From Clostridia bacterium (lineage in GTDB: Bacteria > Bacillota > Peptococcia > DRI-13 > UBA5745), in NCBI GenBank assembly GCA_018434325.1, contig JAHDPO010000013.1, positions 1-64,000 of the forward strand: a stretch of 64,000 nt of DNA. Reading direction: 5' to 3'. Below are positions 49,962-57,543 of the stretch, in pieces (the stretch's first letter is position 1; each line of letters opens with the position of its first letter). Position numbers and translations under genes: made by a program. Under the pieces are notes generated by a model. The model had not been told where the DNA came from. It ran no database searches and was given only the letters and a program-made list of their open reading frames with translations.

Positions 49962-51386
49962 ATGATGGTCTTAAATATCTTGGGCGTTGCCGTTATCTTT
50001 ATCGTCACCGCCTATGTGGGGTATTTCTCCACAAAAAAGGTGAAAAGCTTTAATGATTTTACCTTGGCCGGCAACAGATTAAGCAAGCTGGAAGTCGGCT
50101 TGAGCATGGCCGCCACGGAGTTTGGCGGCAGCAGCTTGATCGGCGCTATGGCTTTTTGCTATACGGTAGGCATTGCCGGCGCCTGGTGGGACTGGTCGGC
50201 AGTACCGGCCTTCATTCTTCTGGGTATTTTCTTTGCCGGCAAAATAAAGCTGCCCGGCATGGTCACCGTCACCGATTTTCTGGAAAAAAGATATAACAGG
50301 CAAACGAAAGTGATCGCCTCTGTTATGCATCTATTGGCGATCATCACGCAGCTGTCTACTCAGTTTTTGGTGGGCGCCGTGGCCCTTCACGGCGTTTTGG
50401 GCGTGCCGCAGCACATCGGTTTGATTGCTACGGTGCTCTTTGTTTTGCTTTATACCATGGGCGGCGGCATGATTGCGGTGGTCAATACGGATATCGTCCA
50501 GTTTGTGATGATTATGGCTACTCTGGCCATTGCCCTGCCGATTTCTCTATCGAAGGCCGGCGGTTTCAGCGGCTTGGCTGCCAGCTTGCCTGCCGAGTTT
50601 TTGAGCTTTGGCAATATCGAGTTAAAGACTGTTCTTTCCTGGGGCCTGTTTTGTATTTTTACCTATGCCACCAGCCAGCATTATATCCAGAGGATCTTCG
50701 CTGCCAAGGACAAGGCCACGGCCCGTTTCGCCTTTGTCTTTACCGGCGCCGCTTATTTCGTCTATGGTCTGGCCATCGCGATTATCGGTGTTTGCATCGT
50801 GGTGCTGCTGCCCGGTCTGGAGGACCCCAATATGGGCTATGCTTTATTCATCAGAAATTACATACCGGCAGGCATTGCCGGCTTGGTATTAGGCGGTATA
50901 TTTGCGGCTTCGATGTCGACGGCTTCTTCCATGCTGCTGGCTGCCTCGGTCTTATTCATTAATGATATCTATGAGCCGGTGATGCACAAGCATAAGGGGG
51001 CCAGCGACAGGCAATCCCTCAGGGCTATACGGATCATCACCGTTGCCGTTTGCGTATCTTCCATCACTATTTCTTTCTTTCTCGACAACATTATCCGGAT
51101 CATGTATTTGGGCGGACTTTTCTATTCAACGGCTGTTTTCTTCCCGCTAGCGGCAGGTCTGGTTTGGAAGCGGGCGACGGCTCCGGCGGCTTTCTGCTCT
51201 ATTCTGGCTTCAGTGGCTGTGGGACTGGTGGCCGAATTCTTTTTAGCGGGCAAGCCCGGTATTTTGGGGCTGCCTTCCAATATATTGGCGGCTCTTGTCA
51301 GCATAATCGTCCTGATTGCTGTTTCCTTGTCCACACCAAAGCCCTCTGCTCAGCAAATCGACTTCCTGTCAGAAACTGGTTCTTGA
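49962..51386 (+). CDS. Sodium:solute symporter (SSS family)
   Basis: 474-aa, about 13-helix Na+-coupled importer of the PutP/PanF/SglT fold. DFTLAGNRLSKLEVGLSMAATEFGGSSLIGAMAFCYTVGIAGAWW covers helices 1-2; GGIFAASMSTASSMLLAASVLFINDIY is the family's TM8 Na+-site signature. Substrate unknown (monocarboxylate or amino acid most likely). AGGAGG precedes the ATG. Single gene with own promoter and terminator. Confidence 0.88.
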   Translation: MMVLNILGVAVIFIVTAYVGYFSTKKVKSFNDFTLAGNRLSKLEVGLSMAATEFGGSSLIGAMAFCYTVGIAGAWWDWSAVPAFILLGIFFAGKIKLPGMVTVTDFLEKRYNRQTKVIASVMHLLAIITQLSTQFLVGAVALHGVLGVPQHIGLIATVLFVLLYTMGGGMIAVVNTDIVQFVMIMATLAIALPISLSKAGGFSGLAASLPAEFLSFGNIELKTVLSWGLFCIFTYATSQHYIQRIFAAKDKATARFAFVFTGAAYFVYGLAIAIIGVCIVVLLPGLEDPNMGYALFIRNYIPAGIAGLVLGGIFAASMSTASSMLLAASVLFINDIYEPVMHKHKGASDRQSLRAIRIITVAVCVSSITISFFLDNIIRIMYLGGLFYSTAVFFPLAAGLVWKRATAPAAFCSILASVAVGLVAEFFLAGKPGILGLPSNILAALVSIIVLIAVSLSTPKPSAQQIDFLSETGS

Positions 51387-51416
51387 AAAAAACAGCAAAA
51401 CATGCAAAAATAAGCC

Positions 51417-51465
51417 AAAACAGCGCATTGTAGGCTGAAAAATATCAGTCTGGGCGCTGTTTTCC
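51417..51465 (+). terminator. Terminator of the symporter gene
   Basis: AAAACAGCGC pairs with GCGCTGTTTT; an inner CTGA/TCAG stem further stabilises it. The T run is short (CCTTATT follows). Confidence 0.75.
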
Positions 51466-51493
51466 TTATTATTCCGACAGGGAGGAATTTGCT

Positions 51494-52348
51494 GTGGCAT
51501 ATCAAAAAAGGCGGAACCTTGCTCCCAAGCTGATCGAGAGCTTTGCGGTCTACTTGCGGGAACAGGAAAGAAGCGGCTCGACCATCAAAAAATATAAGCG
51601 GGATCTCACTGCCCTCTGCGGTTTCCTCCAGGGCCAGCCCATTACCAAAAACGCCTTAATCGAATGGAAAGAGTCTTTGATCAAACAGTATGCCGCTGTC
51701 AGCGTCAACAGCATATTGGCGGCCGTTAATACCTTCCTGAACTTTGCCGGCTGGGGGGACTGCAAGGTTAAACCGTTAAAAATACAGAGAAACTTGTTTT
51801 GCCGGGAGGAAAAAGAGCTGAGCCGGGAGGAATACCTGCGCCTGGTTCAGGCCGCCGGCAGTATGGGCAACCAGCGCCTCAGCCTGGTGCTTCAGACAAT
51901 CTGCGCCACCGGCATACGGGTTTCGGAGTTGCAGTTCGTGACGGTGGAAGCGGTGCAAAAGGGCCGGGCCATAGTAAACTGCAAGGGTAAGACCCGCACC
52001 ATATTTCTGCCGGCAAAGCTCCGTAAAAGCCTTAGCCAATATATCCGCAAACAAAAAAGGCCCTCAGGGCCCGTATTCGTTACGAAAAGCGGTCAAGCTA
52101 TCGATCGCTCAAATATTTGGAGGGATATGAAAGCCTTGTGCGAAAAGGCGGCGGTGGAGCCGGGAAAAGTATTCCCTCATAACCTGCGTCACCTGTTTGC
52201 CCGGACTTATTATACGTTGGAAAAGGATTTGTTTCGGCTGGCCGATCTGCTGGGCCACTCCAGCGTCAATACCACCCGGATTTACACCATGGAAAGCGGT
52301 GTTGTCCACGCCAGGCAGATCGAGCATATGAGACTGGTGATCACATAA
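51494..52348 (+). CDS. Tyrosine recombinase (XerD/RecV-like), probable DNA invertase
   Basis: 284-aa site-specific recombinase. N-terminal SAM-like core-binding domain (1-95), catalytic domain with the complete set: Arg142 (TGIRVSEL), Lys166 (GKTR), His229-x-x-Arg232 (HNLR), His255 (LLGHSS) and nucleophile Tyr264 (TRIYT). It starts at GTG with GGAGG 8 nt upstream. No phage or plasmid genes lie nearby, so it is not an evident prophage integrase. Its stop codon is inside the left arm of a 23-bp inverted repeat bounding a promoter-bearing segment, so local DNA inversion is its likely job. Such recombinases (for example RecV of Clostridioides difficile) invert promoters controlling motility and c-di-GMP genes. 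Confidence 0.9.
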   Translation: MAYQKRRNLAPKLIESFAVYLREQERSGSTIKKYKRDLTALCGFLQGQPITKNALIEWKESLIKQYAAVSVNSILAAVNTFLNFAGWGDCKVKPLKIQRNLFCREEKELSREEYLRLVQAAGSMGNQRLSLVLQTICATGIRVSELQFVTVEAVQKGRAIVNCKGKTRTIFLPAKLRKSLSQYIRKQKRPSGPVFVTKSGQAIDRSNIWRDMKALCEKAAVEPGKVFPHNLRHLFARTYYTLEKDLFRLADLLGHSSVNTTRIYTMESGVVHARQIEHMRLVIT

Positions 52349-52503
52349 TTTTGATTTTGTTGTAATTACGCTTTTTTATGACAAGTCTCCAGGAAATTAT
52401 ATATCACACTGTATAAAAGGGCAAGCATTTATCTAGGTATTGCTTTTTTTATCTTGTAAAAACACCCCTTTCCGACGGAATACAACAAAATCAAAATTAT
52501 GTG
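52342..52503. other. Putative invertible DNA element (phase-variation switch)
   Basis: A perfect 23-bp inverted repeat, left 52342-52364 and right 52481-52503 (core TTTTGATTTTGTTG on the left), encloses 116 bp. The flanking bases on each side (52341/52504 and 52365/52480) do not match, so the repeat is exactly bounded. It lies between a tyrosine recombinase and an EAL gene and contains a promoter. The left arm overlaps the recombinase stop (TAA 52346-52348); because the arms are identical, inversion leaves the recombinase C terminus intact. Confidence 0.82.
52396..52424 (-). promoter_or_regulatory. Promoter inside the invertible segment (currently pointing away from the EAL gene)
   Basis: Minus-strand TTGCCC (52424-52419), 17-bp spacer, perfect TATAAT (52401-52396). 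As sequenced it would fire toward the recombinase 3' end, giving antisense RNA. After inversion it would point at the EAL-chemoreceptor operon. A weaker plus-strand candidate (ATGACA at 52378, 16 bp, TATATC) exists, so the present state may be low rather than zero. Confidence 0.65.
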
Positions 52504-52574
52504 GTAAATATCTTTCTTCTGAGGCGTTATTATGCGAAGGGCTAATTCTCCAGCTCTGTAAAAGGGGGCTTTTC

Positions 52575-53873
52575 TTGAAAGGAATAGAGGTGCTGACCGA
52601 TTATTTGACGGGTCTCCCCAATAGGTATGCTTTTGAAAAAGCCATAAGCCGGCTGCTGCAAAGAAGGTTTATGGCAGGCTATGCACTTTTAATTGATATC
52701 GATGATTTTAAGACAATTAATCAAGGCTTCGGCTATACTGCGGGAGATATCCTGATTATTAACTTTGCCCTCTTTTTGCAGTCGGCCTTGCCGCCGGCCT
52801 ATCGGATATTTCGCATGAACGGCGATGTCTTTGCCCTGATCAGCAACGAAACATCGCCCGACAAAATAATTGAAGATATGGAGGCGGTATTAAGCCGCTG
52901 TCAGTCTGCCTGGCCAATCGGCGGCAGGATGACTTTTTGCAGCGTAAGCATAGCGGCGGTTGCTTTTCCGGCCAACGGCAAGTCCCTTGACGAAATCGTC
53001 CGCAATCTGAACGATGCTTTATACCAGGCCCGCAAAAGCGGCAAGAATCAGCTGGCTATTTACAGCAAAGATGTGGAGAGCGTAGCGGATATTGTCATGA
53101 AACGCCGGGAAATGGAGGATATGCTTTTAGAAGCGGTGAAGGGGGGCTTTGAGGGCTTCCAATGCCATTACCAGCCCATTGTCTGCGCCGAAAGCGGCAG
53201 GATTCTAGGGGCGGAAGCGTTGCTGCGCTTTACCAGCAAATCCGGACGGATAATTGCCCCTATGTCCTTTATTCCTTTAGCGGAGCAAACAGGCTTAATT
53301 CTGCCCATCGGTCATTATGTATTAAGCAAGGCCTTTCACTTCTGCAAATCGGTAATCGAAGCCGGTCATCAAGACTTTCATATCAATATTAATCTTTCCG
53401 TCTGCCAGCTGGAAAACCCTTGTTTTGCCCAAATGGTTCTTAAAATGCTGCAGGAGCTGGCTATTCCCTATGCCAATATTGTCCTGGAAATAACCGAAAC
53501 CATGGCCGCTTCCAACATCGAGGGTATTCGCAATACCTGCAAACAACTGTTGGAGGCGGGGCTTCATATTGCTTTGGATGATTTCGGAACGGGCTACTCG
53601 TCTTTAAACATGATCCGCACCATGCCCGTTGACGGAATTAAAATTGACCGTACTTTCATCAAGGATCTGCTTTTCGACGAATACACCCTGTCGGTTATCC
53701 GGCTGATCACCGAGTTGAAGAGCAGACTGGGCATCACGGTTTATGCGGAGGGCGTCGAACAAAAGGAACAATTATCAAAATGCAGAGAGTTGGGGGTGAA
53801 TCTCATACAGGGGCACGTCTTTTATAAGGCCATGCCGGAACAAGAATTGCTTAGAATAATTCAGGACAGCTGA
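52575..53873 (+). CDS. GGDEF-EAL protein, probable c-di-GMP phosphodiesterase
   Basis: 432-aa cytosolic protein with no sensor or membrane part. GGDEF domain (1-170) begins LTDYLTGLPNRYAFEKA but its signature is NGDVF (82-86), so cyclase activity is unlikely; it may bind GTP as an activator. EAL domain (185-425) is complete: EALLRF (214), NINLS, LEITET (Glu305), LDDFGTGYSSL (Asp335-336), IKIDRTF (Lys356), YAEGVE, QGHVF. It should degrade c-di-GMP to pGpG. Start: TTG 52575 with AAAGGGGG 7 nt before; GTG 52590 is possible. The open frame back to 52440 runs into the right inverted-repeat arm and is not translated by any good site. Likely transcribed only when the switch is inverted; chemoreceptor gene 33 bp downstream. 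Confidence 0.9.
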   Translation: MKGIEVLTDYLTGLPNRYAFEKAISRLLQRRFMAGYALLIDIDDFKTINQGFGYTAGDILIINFALFLQSALPPAYRIFRMNGDVFALISNETSPDKIIEDMEAVLSRCQSAWPIGGRMTFCSVSIAAVAFPANGKSLDEIVRNLNDALYQARKSGKNQLAIYSKDVESVADIVMKRREMEDMLLEAVKGGFEGFQCHYQPIVCAESGRILGAEALLRFTSKSGRIIAPMSFIPLAEQTGLILPIGHYVLSKAFHFCKSVIEAGHQDFHININLSVCQLENPCFAQMVLKMLQELAIPYANIVLEITETMAASNIEGIRNTCKQLLEAGLHIALDDFGTGYSSLNMIRTMPVDGIKIDRTFIKDLLFDEYTLSVIRLITELKSRLGITVYAEGVEQKEQLSKCRELGVNLIQGHVFYKAMPEQELLRIIQDS

Positions 53874-53906
53874 ATCAGAGGAATTTAGATAGGAGAGAAT
53901 ATAGTC

Positions 53907-55610
53907 ATGTCAAGAATAAAACATTGGTTCCTAAACGCCAGGATCGGCGTTAAAATTACCTGGGGCTTTTTGTTGGTGGCTATAATTGCAGCGATAATTG
54001 GAGCGGTGGGGATCATCAGCTTGATGACTGTCGGCAACTCCTATCATATTGCTTATGCAGATTCTGTTGCGGCTTTGAGAAGTATGGAAAGAATTAGCTC
54101 TTCTTTTCAGGAAATCAGAGCCAATATGAATGAAATGATCCTGGCTGACGATAAGAAAGGCAAGGATGCCTGCGCCGCCAGTATAGCTGAACATCAAAAG
54201 ACCATTGCCGATAATTTGGCAGGGTATTATGGGATAATGGAAAAATATACGGCAGAAGAGGCGGCGGCGGAACTCCAGCTGCTTGCCGGGCTTGAAGCCT
54301 CCTTAAATGCCTTCAATGAGGAAACGATAAAATACGTCAACGGCATTGGCCAGACACAGCGCCGGGCGGAGGCCTTCCGCATGATCAGTGACGGCGGCGA
54401 ACTGCATAATCTGACCCAGGTAACCGAGGGCAATATTGTTGAACTGATTGATTACAATAATGATTATGCGGCGGCTCAGATTGACAGCAACGCTAAGCTG
54501 TCTTTGCAGGCCGAGCTTATTATGGCAGCCTGTCTGCTGATTGGCATCATTATGGCGGTGCTGATCGGCCTCTATATTTCTCGAAGCATATCCAGGCCTA
54601 TTCACGGGATCGTGAAGGTGACCGACAAGCTGGCCCTTGGCGATATCAATGTTAATGTGGACATAGACACGGCGGATGAAATCGGCATGCTGGCCAGATC
54701 CTTCCGCAATATGATCGAAAACATTCGCAGCCAGGCATTGGCCGCCGAAAAAATTGCCGATGGCGATCTGACTGTGGATGTAGCCGTCCGGTCGGCCGAC
54801 GATCTGCTTGGCCAAAAGCTTACGGAGCTGGTGCAAAAGAATAATCGGGCGATGATGAATATTGTTACTGCTGCCCAGCAGGTCAGCACTGGCTCCGAGC
54901 AGGTTTCCAGCGGCGCTCAAGCTCTGGCGGCCGGTTCCACAGAGCAGGCTGCTTCTGTGGAGGAGCTGAACGCCTCCATTGAAAGAATTGCCGAGCAGGC
55001 GGCGGAAAACCTGACCATTGTAAATACCTCCGCCGAATATTTAGCCCAGGCTGATGCGGGAATCAGCACGGGCAATCAATACATGGAACAACTATCCCAG
55101 GCCATGGCCGAAATCGGCGCCTCTTCCGGTCAAATTGCCAATATTACGAAGGTGATTGAGGATATTGCTTTCCAGACCAATATTCTTGCCTTGAATGCGG
55201 CTATTGAAGCAGCCCGGGCCGGTAATGCCGGCAAAGGCTTTGCCGTGGTGGCCGACGAGGTGCGCAACCTGGCCGCCAAATCGGCGGAAGCAGCCAAGCA
55301 GACGGGCCAGCTGATCCAGGCTTCCGTTACCACTGTGGCCAGGGGCACGGAAATGACGGCTCAGACAGCCCGGATTTTGCAGGATGTAGGGGTGAAAGCC
55401 GGCCAAGTCACCGAAAGCTTTGGCAAAATTGAAGCGTCCTCCAAGGAGCAGGCCGGGGCCATCAAGCAGATCAGGGACGGTTTGGGACAGGTGTCTGACG
55501 TTGTGCAGACCAACGCCGCCACCGCCGAGGAAAACTCCGCCACTGCCGAGGAAATGTCGGCCCAGGCCTTGACCCTGCGTCAAGAGGTCGGCAAATTTAA
55601 GCTGAGATAA
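53907..55610 (+). CDS. Methyl-accepting chemotaxis protein with four-helix-bundle sensor
   Basis: 567-aa chemoreceptor. TM1 about 14-40, all-helical ligand domain of the 4HB_MCP type (41-205), TM2 about 206-230, HAMP ([29 protein letters not shown]), signalling tip [44 protein letters not shown] upstream of the ATG. It is close behind the EAL gene with no terminator between, so it should be co-expressed from the invertible promoter, linking chemosensing to c-di-GMP turnover. Confidence 0.93.
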
Positions 55611-55683
55611 TGGGGCAATTATCATAAATCGGAATATTGCAGGATAAATTATAAATTAAATCGGAATAGATCGGAATAACAAT

Positions 55684-55727
55684 GTACCCAATATAGCTTA
55701 AAATGCGCTGTATTGGGTACTTTTTTT
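55684..55727 (+). terminator. Terminator of the EAL-chemoreceptor operon
   Basis: GTACCCAATA pairs with TATTGGGTAC, then seven Ts. Confidence 0.9.
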
Positions 55728-55738
55728 ACTTTTTTAAC

Positions 55739-55767
55739 TTGTCTGCTGTCGAAATATTAGATACAAT
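55739..55767 (+). promoter_or_regulatory. Promoter of the second chemoreceptor gene
   Basis: TTGTCT (55739-55744), 17 bp, TACAAT (55762-55767), about 80 bp before the start. It follows the previous terminator directly, so this chemoreceptor is independent of the switch. Confidence 0.6.
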
Positions 55768-55848
55768 GAACAAGGAATATTCTAAGGCGGCAATACATTT
55801 CATGGATTCAAGAATTTTCATGATTTTCAGACAAGAGGTGTATGGGAA

Positions 55849-57543
55849 TTGATAAAGCAATATGGGTTTTTCAAAAGCATCACAGGTAAAATTTCCTGCA
55901 TGGCCATCGCTATCGCATTGTTTAGTACAATATTTATGGGGATATTCAGCTACGTCTTTTTTCGGGAGAATTCTGTTGAGGCCAGCGCCCGGCAAGCCAT
56001 GACTATTGCCGATACGGTAGCCGCCGCTATCGATAAGGAGCAGTTTGAGCTGATTCTGGAAGCCGGCCAGGGAAATGATTATTTACAAAAGGTGCAGCAT
56101 TTTATCAGTGAGACGGCCGCTGCTGCAGGAGCAACCTATCTCTATGTTTTGGATAGTCGTTACGATCAGAGCGTTTATTATTTTGCCGACGCCGATATTC
56201 CCGGCGAAGAAGCCTTGGGGCTATTGGCTGAAGAACCGGCCAGTGCTTTTGCCGATGAAATGTTTGCCACCATCAGCAGCGGCCTTCCTTCATTTACTTC
56301 TATTTATGATTCGGAAGGTTTTGGCTATATGGTCTCCGGCTTTTCACCGATCATCAATTCCGGCGGGCAAGTAATCGGCGTTGTGGGCGTGGACTTGGGT
56401 GTCGACGACGTGCTGAAAAACAGCAATAGCTTTGCCGCTATTTTGCTGGCCATCGGCCTTATTACCACGGTTATCTACTGTATGTTTTCCCTGTTCCTGA
56501 CCCGCCGCATCATCAGCCGGCCCATTGGCCGGCTGATCGAGGCTTCGGAGCAGATGGCCCGGGGCGACATGGATATTCAATTAACCAGCGCCTTCGAGGA
56601 CGAAATCGGTATGCTGACGAAGGCTCTCCAGCAAATGGCCGAAAGCACTCAAGGTCAGATTCTTACGCTAAAAGCTATTGCCGAAGGCGACCTTTCCGTC
56701 CAGGTGACGCCTCGCAGCGATAAGGATTCTCTGGGCATTGCCATGCAGAGCACCATTGAGACCCTTAGCAAGATGCTGGCGCAGATTCGCTGGAGTGCCG
56801 ATCAGGTATCTCTGGGAGCTGGGCAGATTGCCAAGGGCGCTCAGATATTGGCCGACAGCTCGATGGAGCAGTCTTCCGTAGTTGAGGAGCTTTCGGCTGA
56901 AATTTCCCAGGTGGCGGAGAAGACCAGGCAAAATAAAGATCTGGCGGAGCAGGCCGCCGCCGTGGCCAATGCCATCAGGGATAATGCGGAAACAGGCTCC
57001 CGGCAAATGACGCGGATGATCGAGGCTGTGCAGGATATTGAAGAGGCCGGCCATTCCATCTATAAAGTGATCAAGGTTACCCAGGATATTGCTTTCCAGA
57101 CCAACATTCTGGCTTTGAATGCTTCTATTGAAGCCGCCCGGGCCGGTCAGCACGGCAAAGGTTTTGCGGTGGTGGCCGACGAGGTGCGCAGTCTGGCTCT
57201 GCAAAGTGCGGAGGCTGCTGAAAGCATTCGGCAGCTGGTGGAAAATTCTCTGGATAAATCAAAACTGGGGGTTCAGATTGCCCGGGAGACAGGCTCTTCA
57301 TTCAGCGGCATTGTGGAGGGCATCAATGAAAGCAGCAAGCTGGTCGGTGAGATACCTGCCGCCTCTCAGGAGCAAAGTATGGTAATTGATCATATCTATT
57401 CAGGCATCAATCAGGTGGCGGGAATTGTACAGCAAAACTCGGCTACGGCCCAGGAAAGCGCCGCTTCCGGCGAGATTTTGAGCCGCCAGTCCGGCCAAAT
57501 GCAGGGCCTGGTTTCCCGCTTCCGTTTGGCAGACCAACAATAG
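55849..57543 (+). CDS. Methyl-accepting chemotaxis protein with single-Cache-like sensor
   Basis: 564-aa chemoreceptor. TM1 about 13-37, extracytoplasmic sensor 38-192 with Cache/PAS-like features ([53 protein letters not shown]), TM2 about 194-219, HAMP, signalling tip [42 protein letters not shown] 55849 is the start: AGAGGTG 8 nt upstream; the nearby ATG at 55842 is out of frame. Cache sensors usually bind amino or organic acids. Confidence 0.9.

Follow-up and report, generated by a model that had tools for sequence, protein, structure and literature searches.

Does the tyrosine recombinase gene at positions 51494-52348 of a Clostridia bacterium contig serve a promoter switch of its own, and which genes would such a switch control? 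The DNA analyzed was a stretch of 64,000 nucleotides (assembly GCA_018434325.1, contig JAHDPO010000013.1, positions 1 to 64,000), hereafter the window. A preliminary description of this stretch had proposed that a recombinase, an inverted repeat around a promoter-bearing segment, and genes for an EAL phosphodiesterase and a chemoreceptor form one compact cassette, sequenced in its OFF state. The present analysis of the locus and its relatives suggested, with a probability of about 0.88, that the locus is a self-contained phase-variation cassette, in which the recombinase inverts a promoter segment in front of the EAL gene and the gene for a methyl-accepting chemotaxis protein (MCP). The features are contiguous on 4.1 kb and are as follows:

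51494 to 52348, plus strand: tyrosine recombinase, 284 amino acids, GTG start, ribosome-binding site gggagga, domains PF00589 and PF02899; proposed invertase of the switch.
52342 to 52364, minus strand: left arm of a perfect 23-bp inverted repeat, from a complementarity search.
52363 to 52340, minus strand: dif-like site in the left arm, ACAACAAAA-TCAAAA-TTATGTGAT, from the family site model; spacer TCAAAA at 52354 to 52349.
52365 to 52480, no strand: putative invertible segment between the arms, 116 bp, 34% GC against 52% in the window.
52396 to 52424, minus strand (read from 52424 to 52396): predicted promoter TTGCCC-17-TATAAT, the top promoter match, facing the recombinase, which is the OFF orientation for the EAL-MCP operon.
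52481 to 52503, plus strand: right arm of the 23-bp inverted repeat, from the same complementarity search.
52482 to 52505, plus strand: dif-like site at the right arm, ACAACAAAA-TCAAAA-TTATGTGGT, from the family site model; spacer TCAAAA at 52491 to 52496.
52575 to 53873, plus strand: predicted phosphodiesterase of cyclic diguanosine monophosphate (c-di-GMP), degenerate GGDEF and intact EAL, 432 amino acids, TTG start, ribosome-binding site aaaggggg at about 52561 to 52568.
53907 to 55610, plus strand: MCP with 4HB sensor, HAMP and MCPsignal domains, 567 amino acids, from the open reading frame and domain matches.

The recombinase possessed the complete R-K-H-R-H-Y set of an intact tyrosine recombinase (R142, K164/K166, H229, R232, H255 and Y264), and its stop codon TAA (52346-52348) was located within the left arm. 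The two arms were the sole pair of at least 18 nt with 100% complementarity within 600 bp in the whole window, and no further copy of the arm sequence was found in the 3.83-Mb genome when up to 3 mismatches were allowed. The right arm lies 71 bp before the EAL start, so that short inverted repeats enclose a segment in the range of 100-500 bp ahead of a gene, and the crossover spacer is identical in both arms. The complete recombinase with its stop codon inside an arm and the perfect 23-bp repeat with 116 bp between its arms, both claimed in the preliminary description, were thus borne out by the reading frame, the domain matches, the catalytic residues and the repeat search. When plasmid and phage collections were searched with the recombinase alone, relatives of less than 60% identity were found. 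A remoter relative (34% identity) on plasmid NZ_CP044103.1 (11442-12182) carries the annotation 'tyrosine-type DNA invertase PsrA', which fits the proposed invertase role.

A scan of genome contigs for relatives of the recombinase yielded 77 loci, which encoded relatives with 45-74% identity and, judged by record titles, came nearly all from Clostridia and were largely gut-associated; other genomes in this class supplied further places. The left arm was sought between 60 bp upstream and 150 bp downstream of the 3' end of the recombinase gene, and the site model consisted of the 9-bp half-sites ACAACATAA and TTATGTTGT around N6. An inverted pair fitting ACAACATAA-N6-TTATGTTGT adjoined the recombinase in 62 loci, including the window, and 55 loci remained after the removal of near-identical ones; the left dif-like site was at or just past the recombinase stop codon. 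Conservation of the arms beside the recombinase in relatives, which had been proposed as a check, was therefore observed. The two 6-bp spacers were identical within the locus in all 55 non-redundant loci, whereas 2.6% of the comparisons between loci gave identical spacers (36 different spacers; mean of 2.3 matches out of 6). Conserved half-sites around a spacer that varies between loci and never within one form a pattern that tyrosine recombinases need for strand exchange and that is hard to account for in another way. The pairs were picked by complementarity, which biases towards identical spacers; however, the arms extend well past the spacer, imperfect arms were allowed, and the mismatches occurred in the half-sites, not in the spacer.

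The other proposed check, that both orientations should occur among related genomes, also gave a positive result. In two strains of Anaerotruncus colihominis, DSM 17241 (locus L017) and JM4-15 (locus L091), the segments ran in opposite directions between collinear recombinase and cargo genes. The segment was likewise inverted between L058 and L061 (98.9% identity over 280 bp, minus strand), and further oppositely oriented segments between collinear flanks were found in L027/L034, L054/L055, L072/L062 and L051/L055. In addition, 28 loci had a contig end or a run of N in the 6 kb that follow or, for a few of them, at the recombinase, and in 5 of these 28 the break was located 0-1 bp from the end of the site core: the contigs of L036, L060, L063 and L089 end there, and an N-gap begins there in L026. 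Breaks at the arm are expected if the assembly mixed reads of both orientations, and we regard them as no more than supporting evidence. Behind the recombinase of A. colihominis JM4-15 (L091:271-827), the switch segment was duplicated and three arms were present, with one copy of the segment inverted relative to DSM 17241.

To predict the direction of transcription, we scanned for promoters. TTGCCC-17-TATAAT gave the highest-scoring promoter match in 51300-55900 (10/12), in agreement with the minus-strand promoter claimed for the 116-bp segment. The chance expectation of such a hexamer pair is 0.7 in 261 bp, which is unremarkable by itself; the match gains value as evidence because its position is conserved in relatives. 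It lies 61 bp from the arm, and the distance in the family is about 62 bp. Sigma-70-like promoters that scored 10.5 or more were placed 51-74 bp from the nearer arm (61-65 bp in most cases), facing the recombinase in 26 of the 55 loci and the cargo in 2, and shuffled segments reached this score in 1.4%. The predicted promoter of the window, positioned as in relatives, would face the target after inversion. No promoter-like site was found on the plus strand in 52340-52600, which upheld, for the region upstream of the EAL gene, the claim that the EAL and chemoreceptor genes have no other convincing promoter. When orientation was assigned by the promoter rule, 31 of the 55 loci were OFF, 8 were ON and 16 were unclear; deposited sequences are therefore mostly OFF, like pdcB in Clostridioides difficile R20291 (PMC9286219).

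Based on these results, we infer the following mechanism. The recombinase would bind the two inverted dif-like sites, each with 9-bp half-sites around the 6-bp crossover spacer TCAAAA, and strand exchange between them would invert the promoter-bearing 116-bp segment. In the sequenced orientation, the promoter would fire toward the recombinase and yield RNA antisense to the recombinase gene, leaving the EAL and MCP genes without a promoter of their own (OFF). After inversion, transcription would start at about 52456 and run through the right arm, which would thus be part of a leader of approximately 120 nt. In the ON state, phosphodiesterase and chemoreceptor would be expressed together, which would lower c-di-GMP and alter tactic sensing in a subset of cells whose state is inherited.

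The first target gene has the features of a c-di-GMP phosphodiesterase. Its EAL domain was intact (PF00563, 198 bits) and kept the catalytic motifs in an alignment with MorA (EAL...INLS...EITE...DDFGTGYSS...KIDR...AEGVE...QG), and its GGDEF domain was degenerate, with NGDVF in place of GGDEF. The upstream TTG at 52440 of the mechanically called open reading frame was rejected as the start, and TTG 52575, with its ribosome-binding site, was preferred. The gap between the EAL and MCP genes is 33 bp, so both genes look like one operon, and the MCP gene is probably co-transcribed with the EAL gene. The host genome contained nine EAL matches above the cut-off, flagellin genes and approximately 18 MCP matches, a complement that makes a motility or c-di-GMP phenotype plausible. 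Two other inverted repeats of 25 nt were noted in the window. One (817-841/931-955; 96%, 89 nt apart) is unrelated to the recombinase site, and the other (57732-57756/57915-57939; 84%, 158 nt apart) is flanked by an MCP gene and a gene resembling those of DNA methyltransferases.

The closest cassette, an orthologous one, was found in Christensenella sp. UBA5394, a metagenome-assembled genome, whose recombinase occurs in pieces 72-85% identical to that of the window. There, the recombinase runs into CACATAATTTTGATTC, followed by 377 N, GAATCAAAATTATGTGG and the first part of a GGDEF-EAL gene (50%), and the spacer of the switch is TCAAAA, the same as in the window; in L083, the N-gap directly abuts the arm at either end. 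Another contig carries the remainder of the EAL gene (62%), an MCP gene (54%) and CheW. Assuming that the two contigs are neighbours, the order recombinase, switch, phosphodiesterase and MCP would be conserved in UBA5394. Four further genomes in the genus to which the window belongs lacked a recombinase of this kind. In the most complete of these congeners (G004), the flanking genes were collinear (81-84%), and the gap was occupied by a gene that we labelled AraC/GyrI-like by eye from its translation. A clean empty site was therefore rejected, as insertion is indistinguishable here from replacement or loss. The nearest EAL homologue in G004 was 53% identical, below the Christensenella EAL half (62%). 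Together with the lack of the recombinase in the four congeners, this closer match suggests that the cassette was likely acquired horizontally. By GC content (recombinase 52%, MCP 53%, EAL 48%; window 52%), the cassette does not stand out as foreign. The EAL homologue of G004 belongs to a GGDEF-EAL and MCP pair of its own (L116:6943-9267), which has no tyrosine recombinase and is adjoined by a divergent gene of the serine resolvase family (PF00239). A 28-nt imperfect inverted pair (79%; 8414-8441/8506-8533) lies in between, and this arrangement possibly constitutes a second, unrelated type of switch for this pair of genes.

Several points weigh against an active invertible promoter at this locus. 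One assembly of this species was compared, and one orientation is known for the locus. The half-site ACAACAAAA of the window has a single mismatch to the family consensus ACAACATAA, and the 116-bp segment is far shorter than those of the relatives, which are mostly 190-320 bp. Arms of 20-29 bp may themselves trouble assemblers with very small k-mers, which could partly account for the breaks at the arms, and read-through from the recombinase gene could yield basal expression in the 'OFF' state, which is possibly leaky because the segment is short and has no clear terminator against such read-through.

Among the alternative explanations, the one that survives best accepts the switch as real but has inversion act mainly on termination or on antisense RNA to the recombinase instead of switching the EAL promoter on and off, so that read-through from the recombinase promoter drives the EAL and MCP genes and the segment blocks or allows it. 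This explanation gains some credit from hairpins with T-tracts, which exceeded shuffles in the relatives' segments (25/53 on the plus strand and 20/53 on the other strand versus 12%), from the antisense RNA that the promoter would give as sequenced, and from the description of C. difficile pdcB, in which the output of an upstream promoter varies with switch orientation (PMC9286219). However, no terminator was found by two scans in the window's 116-bp segment (fold z -0.56), and the promoter is a conserved element of the family; we therefore consider this explanation unlikely and do not claim a shared terminator as part of the mechanism in the window. A dead switch, derived from an active one and locked in one orientation in this species, would agree with the shortened segment, the single known orientation and the lack of another family member in the genus. 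It is quite improbable, as the reading frame and catalytic residues of the recombinase are intact, and the arms, which are perfectly identical, would be expected to diverge in a dead switch. Finally, an integrase or a Xer-type dimer-resolution enzyme with an attachment site, dif site or RNA hairpin as the repeat was rejected as very improbable: the half-site TTATGT resembles dif, and the NCBIfam matches and nearest solved structures (PDB) are Xer-like, the latter XerA-like, but the recombinase scored far under both equivalog cut-offs (XerC 111 versus 335 bits; XerD 113 versus 330 bits), the genome has four further Phage_integrase genes, some of XerC/D size, the inverted two-site order adjoins the gene throughout the family, with segments found inverted, and no T-run follows the arms. 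Collectively, the spacer identity in 55/55 loci, the orientations of related loci, the breaks at arms, the promoter position and the Christensenella cassette support the invertible promoter, OFF as sequenced and targeting the EAL and chemoreceptor genes, as originally proposed.

The cargo behind the switch differed among the related loci. REC-GGDEF diguanylate cyclases were identified in L038, L042 and L088 by Pfam and in L039, L041, L043-L047 and L076 by similarity, placing the opposite side of c-di-GMP signalling under the same recombinase family. A PilZ protein follows the cyclase in at least one locus (L042), and in L041 and L043 the cyclase is followed by a large protein that weakly matched a collagen-binding domain. 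Other signalling cargo comprised a GGDEF protein (L019), MCPs (L016 and L037), CheW with an MCP (L020 and L033) and a hybrid kinase (L025), and many loci carried surface-protein cargo (LRR_5, SpaA-like, camelysin-like and signal peptidase). On the recombinase tree (FastTree; some supports low), the c-di-GMP and MCP loci did not form one group. This scatter suggests that cargo was probably swapped repeatedly within the recombinase family.

RecV of C. difficile is a tyrosine recombinase that inverts promoter segments before motility and surface genes (flagellar and cwpV switches). RecV acts on several distant sites, whereas the present recombinase would act on one site pair beside its own gene; the likeness is by analogy only. 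In the fim switch of Escherichia coli, FimB and FimE, two recombinases with biased activity, are encoded beside the invertible promoter element fimS (314 bp); the present locus has one recombinase, and its target is a signalling operon rather than a fimbrial one.

The closest parallels in target are pdcB (Cdi2) and pdcC (Cdi3) of C. difficile, where invertible promoters precede phosphodiesterases with degenerate GGDEF and intact EAL domains, and the ON state lowers c-di-GMP (PMC9286219, PMC5903667). As far as these reports describe them, they share with the present locus the short inverted-repeat promoter segment, the type of target and a reference genome in the OFF state. In the same descriptions, the recombinase is not beside the switch and, for pdcB, is not identified, whereas here it is contiguous with perfect arms, phosphodiesterase and MCP. 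The pdcB arms are given as 19 bp, imperfect and 840 bp upstream, in contrast to the perfect 23-bp arms here, which end 71 bp ahead of the EAL gene; PdcB also contains a PAS domain, and the pdcB and pdcC targets are described without a chemoreceptor. In inverton group 139 and invertase group 35 of gut Clostridia, a tyrosine-type recombinase adjoins an inverton with about 206-228 bp between its arms, and flipping of group 139 was measured in cultures of Clostridium sp. D5 and Intestinimonas butyriciproducens (PMC11892184). By the main-text description, with which the comparison was made, geometry and host class are compatible, and the present family is likely the same as these groups; that main text mentions no c-di-GMP or chemotaxis target for group 139. 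Sekulovic et al. (2018) reported inversion signatures near an MCP gene in Anaerotignum propionicum and near chemotaxis genes in Clostridium thermocellum (PMC5903667); in the account given there, no recombinase or arms are assigned to these sites and no phosphodiesterase-MCP operon is described.

The switch type itself is thus already known; what is new here is that the arrangement is self-contained and that phosphodiesterase and chemoreceptor would be switched together. The rule of private spacers was established here for the family and was not found in the accounts of clostridial invertible switches consulted. Combined with a ACAACATAA-N6-TTATGTTGT site at the stop codon of the recombinase, such spacers provide a simple rule to find switches and their targets from assemblies alone, and they predict which switches cannot cross-recombine. 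With recombinase, sites, promoter, phosphodiesterase and chemoreceptor all on 4.1 kb, the cassette lends itself readily to experimental tests. At about even odds, the family may represent a widespread, horizontally moving module, with a dedicated recombinase that ends in its own site, a locus-private spacer and plug-in cargo, repeatedly a c-di-GMP enzyme or chemoreceptor. Bacteria would thus acquire ready-made, mutually insulated behavioural switches, and in the present organism c-di-GMP breakdown and chemosensing would be switched together.

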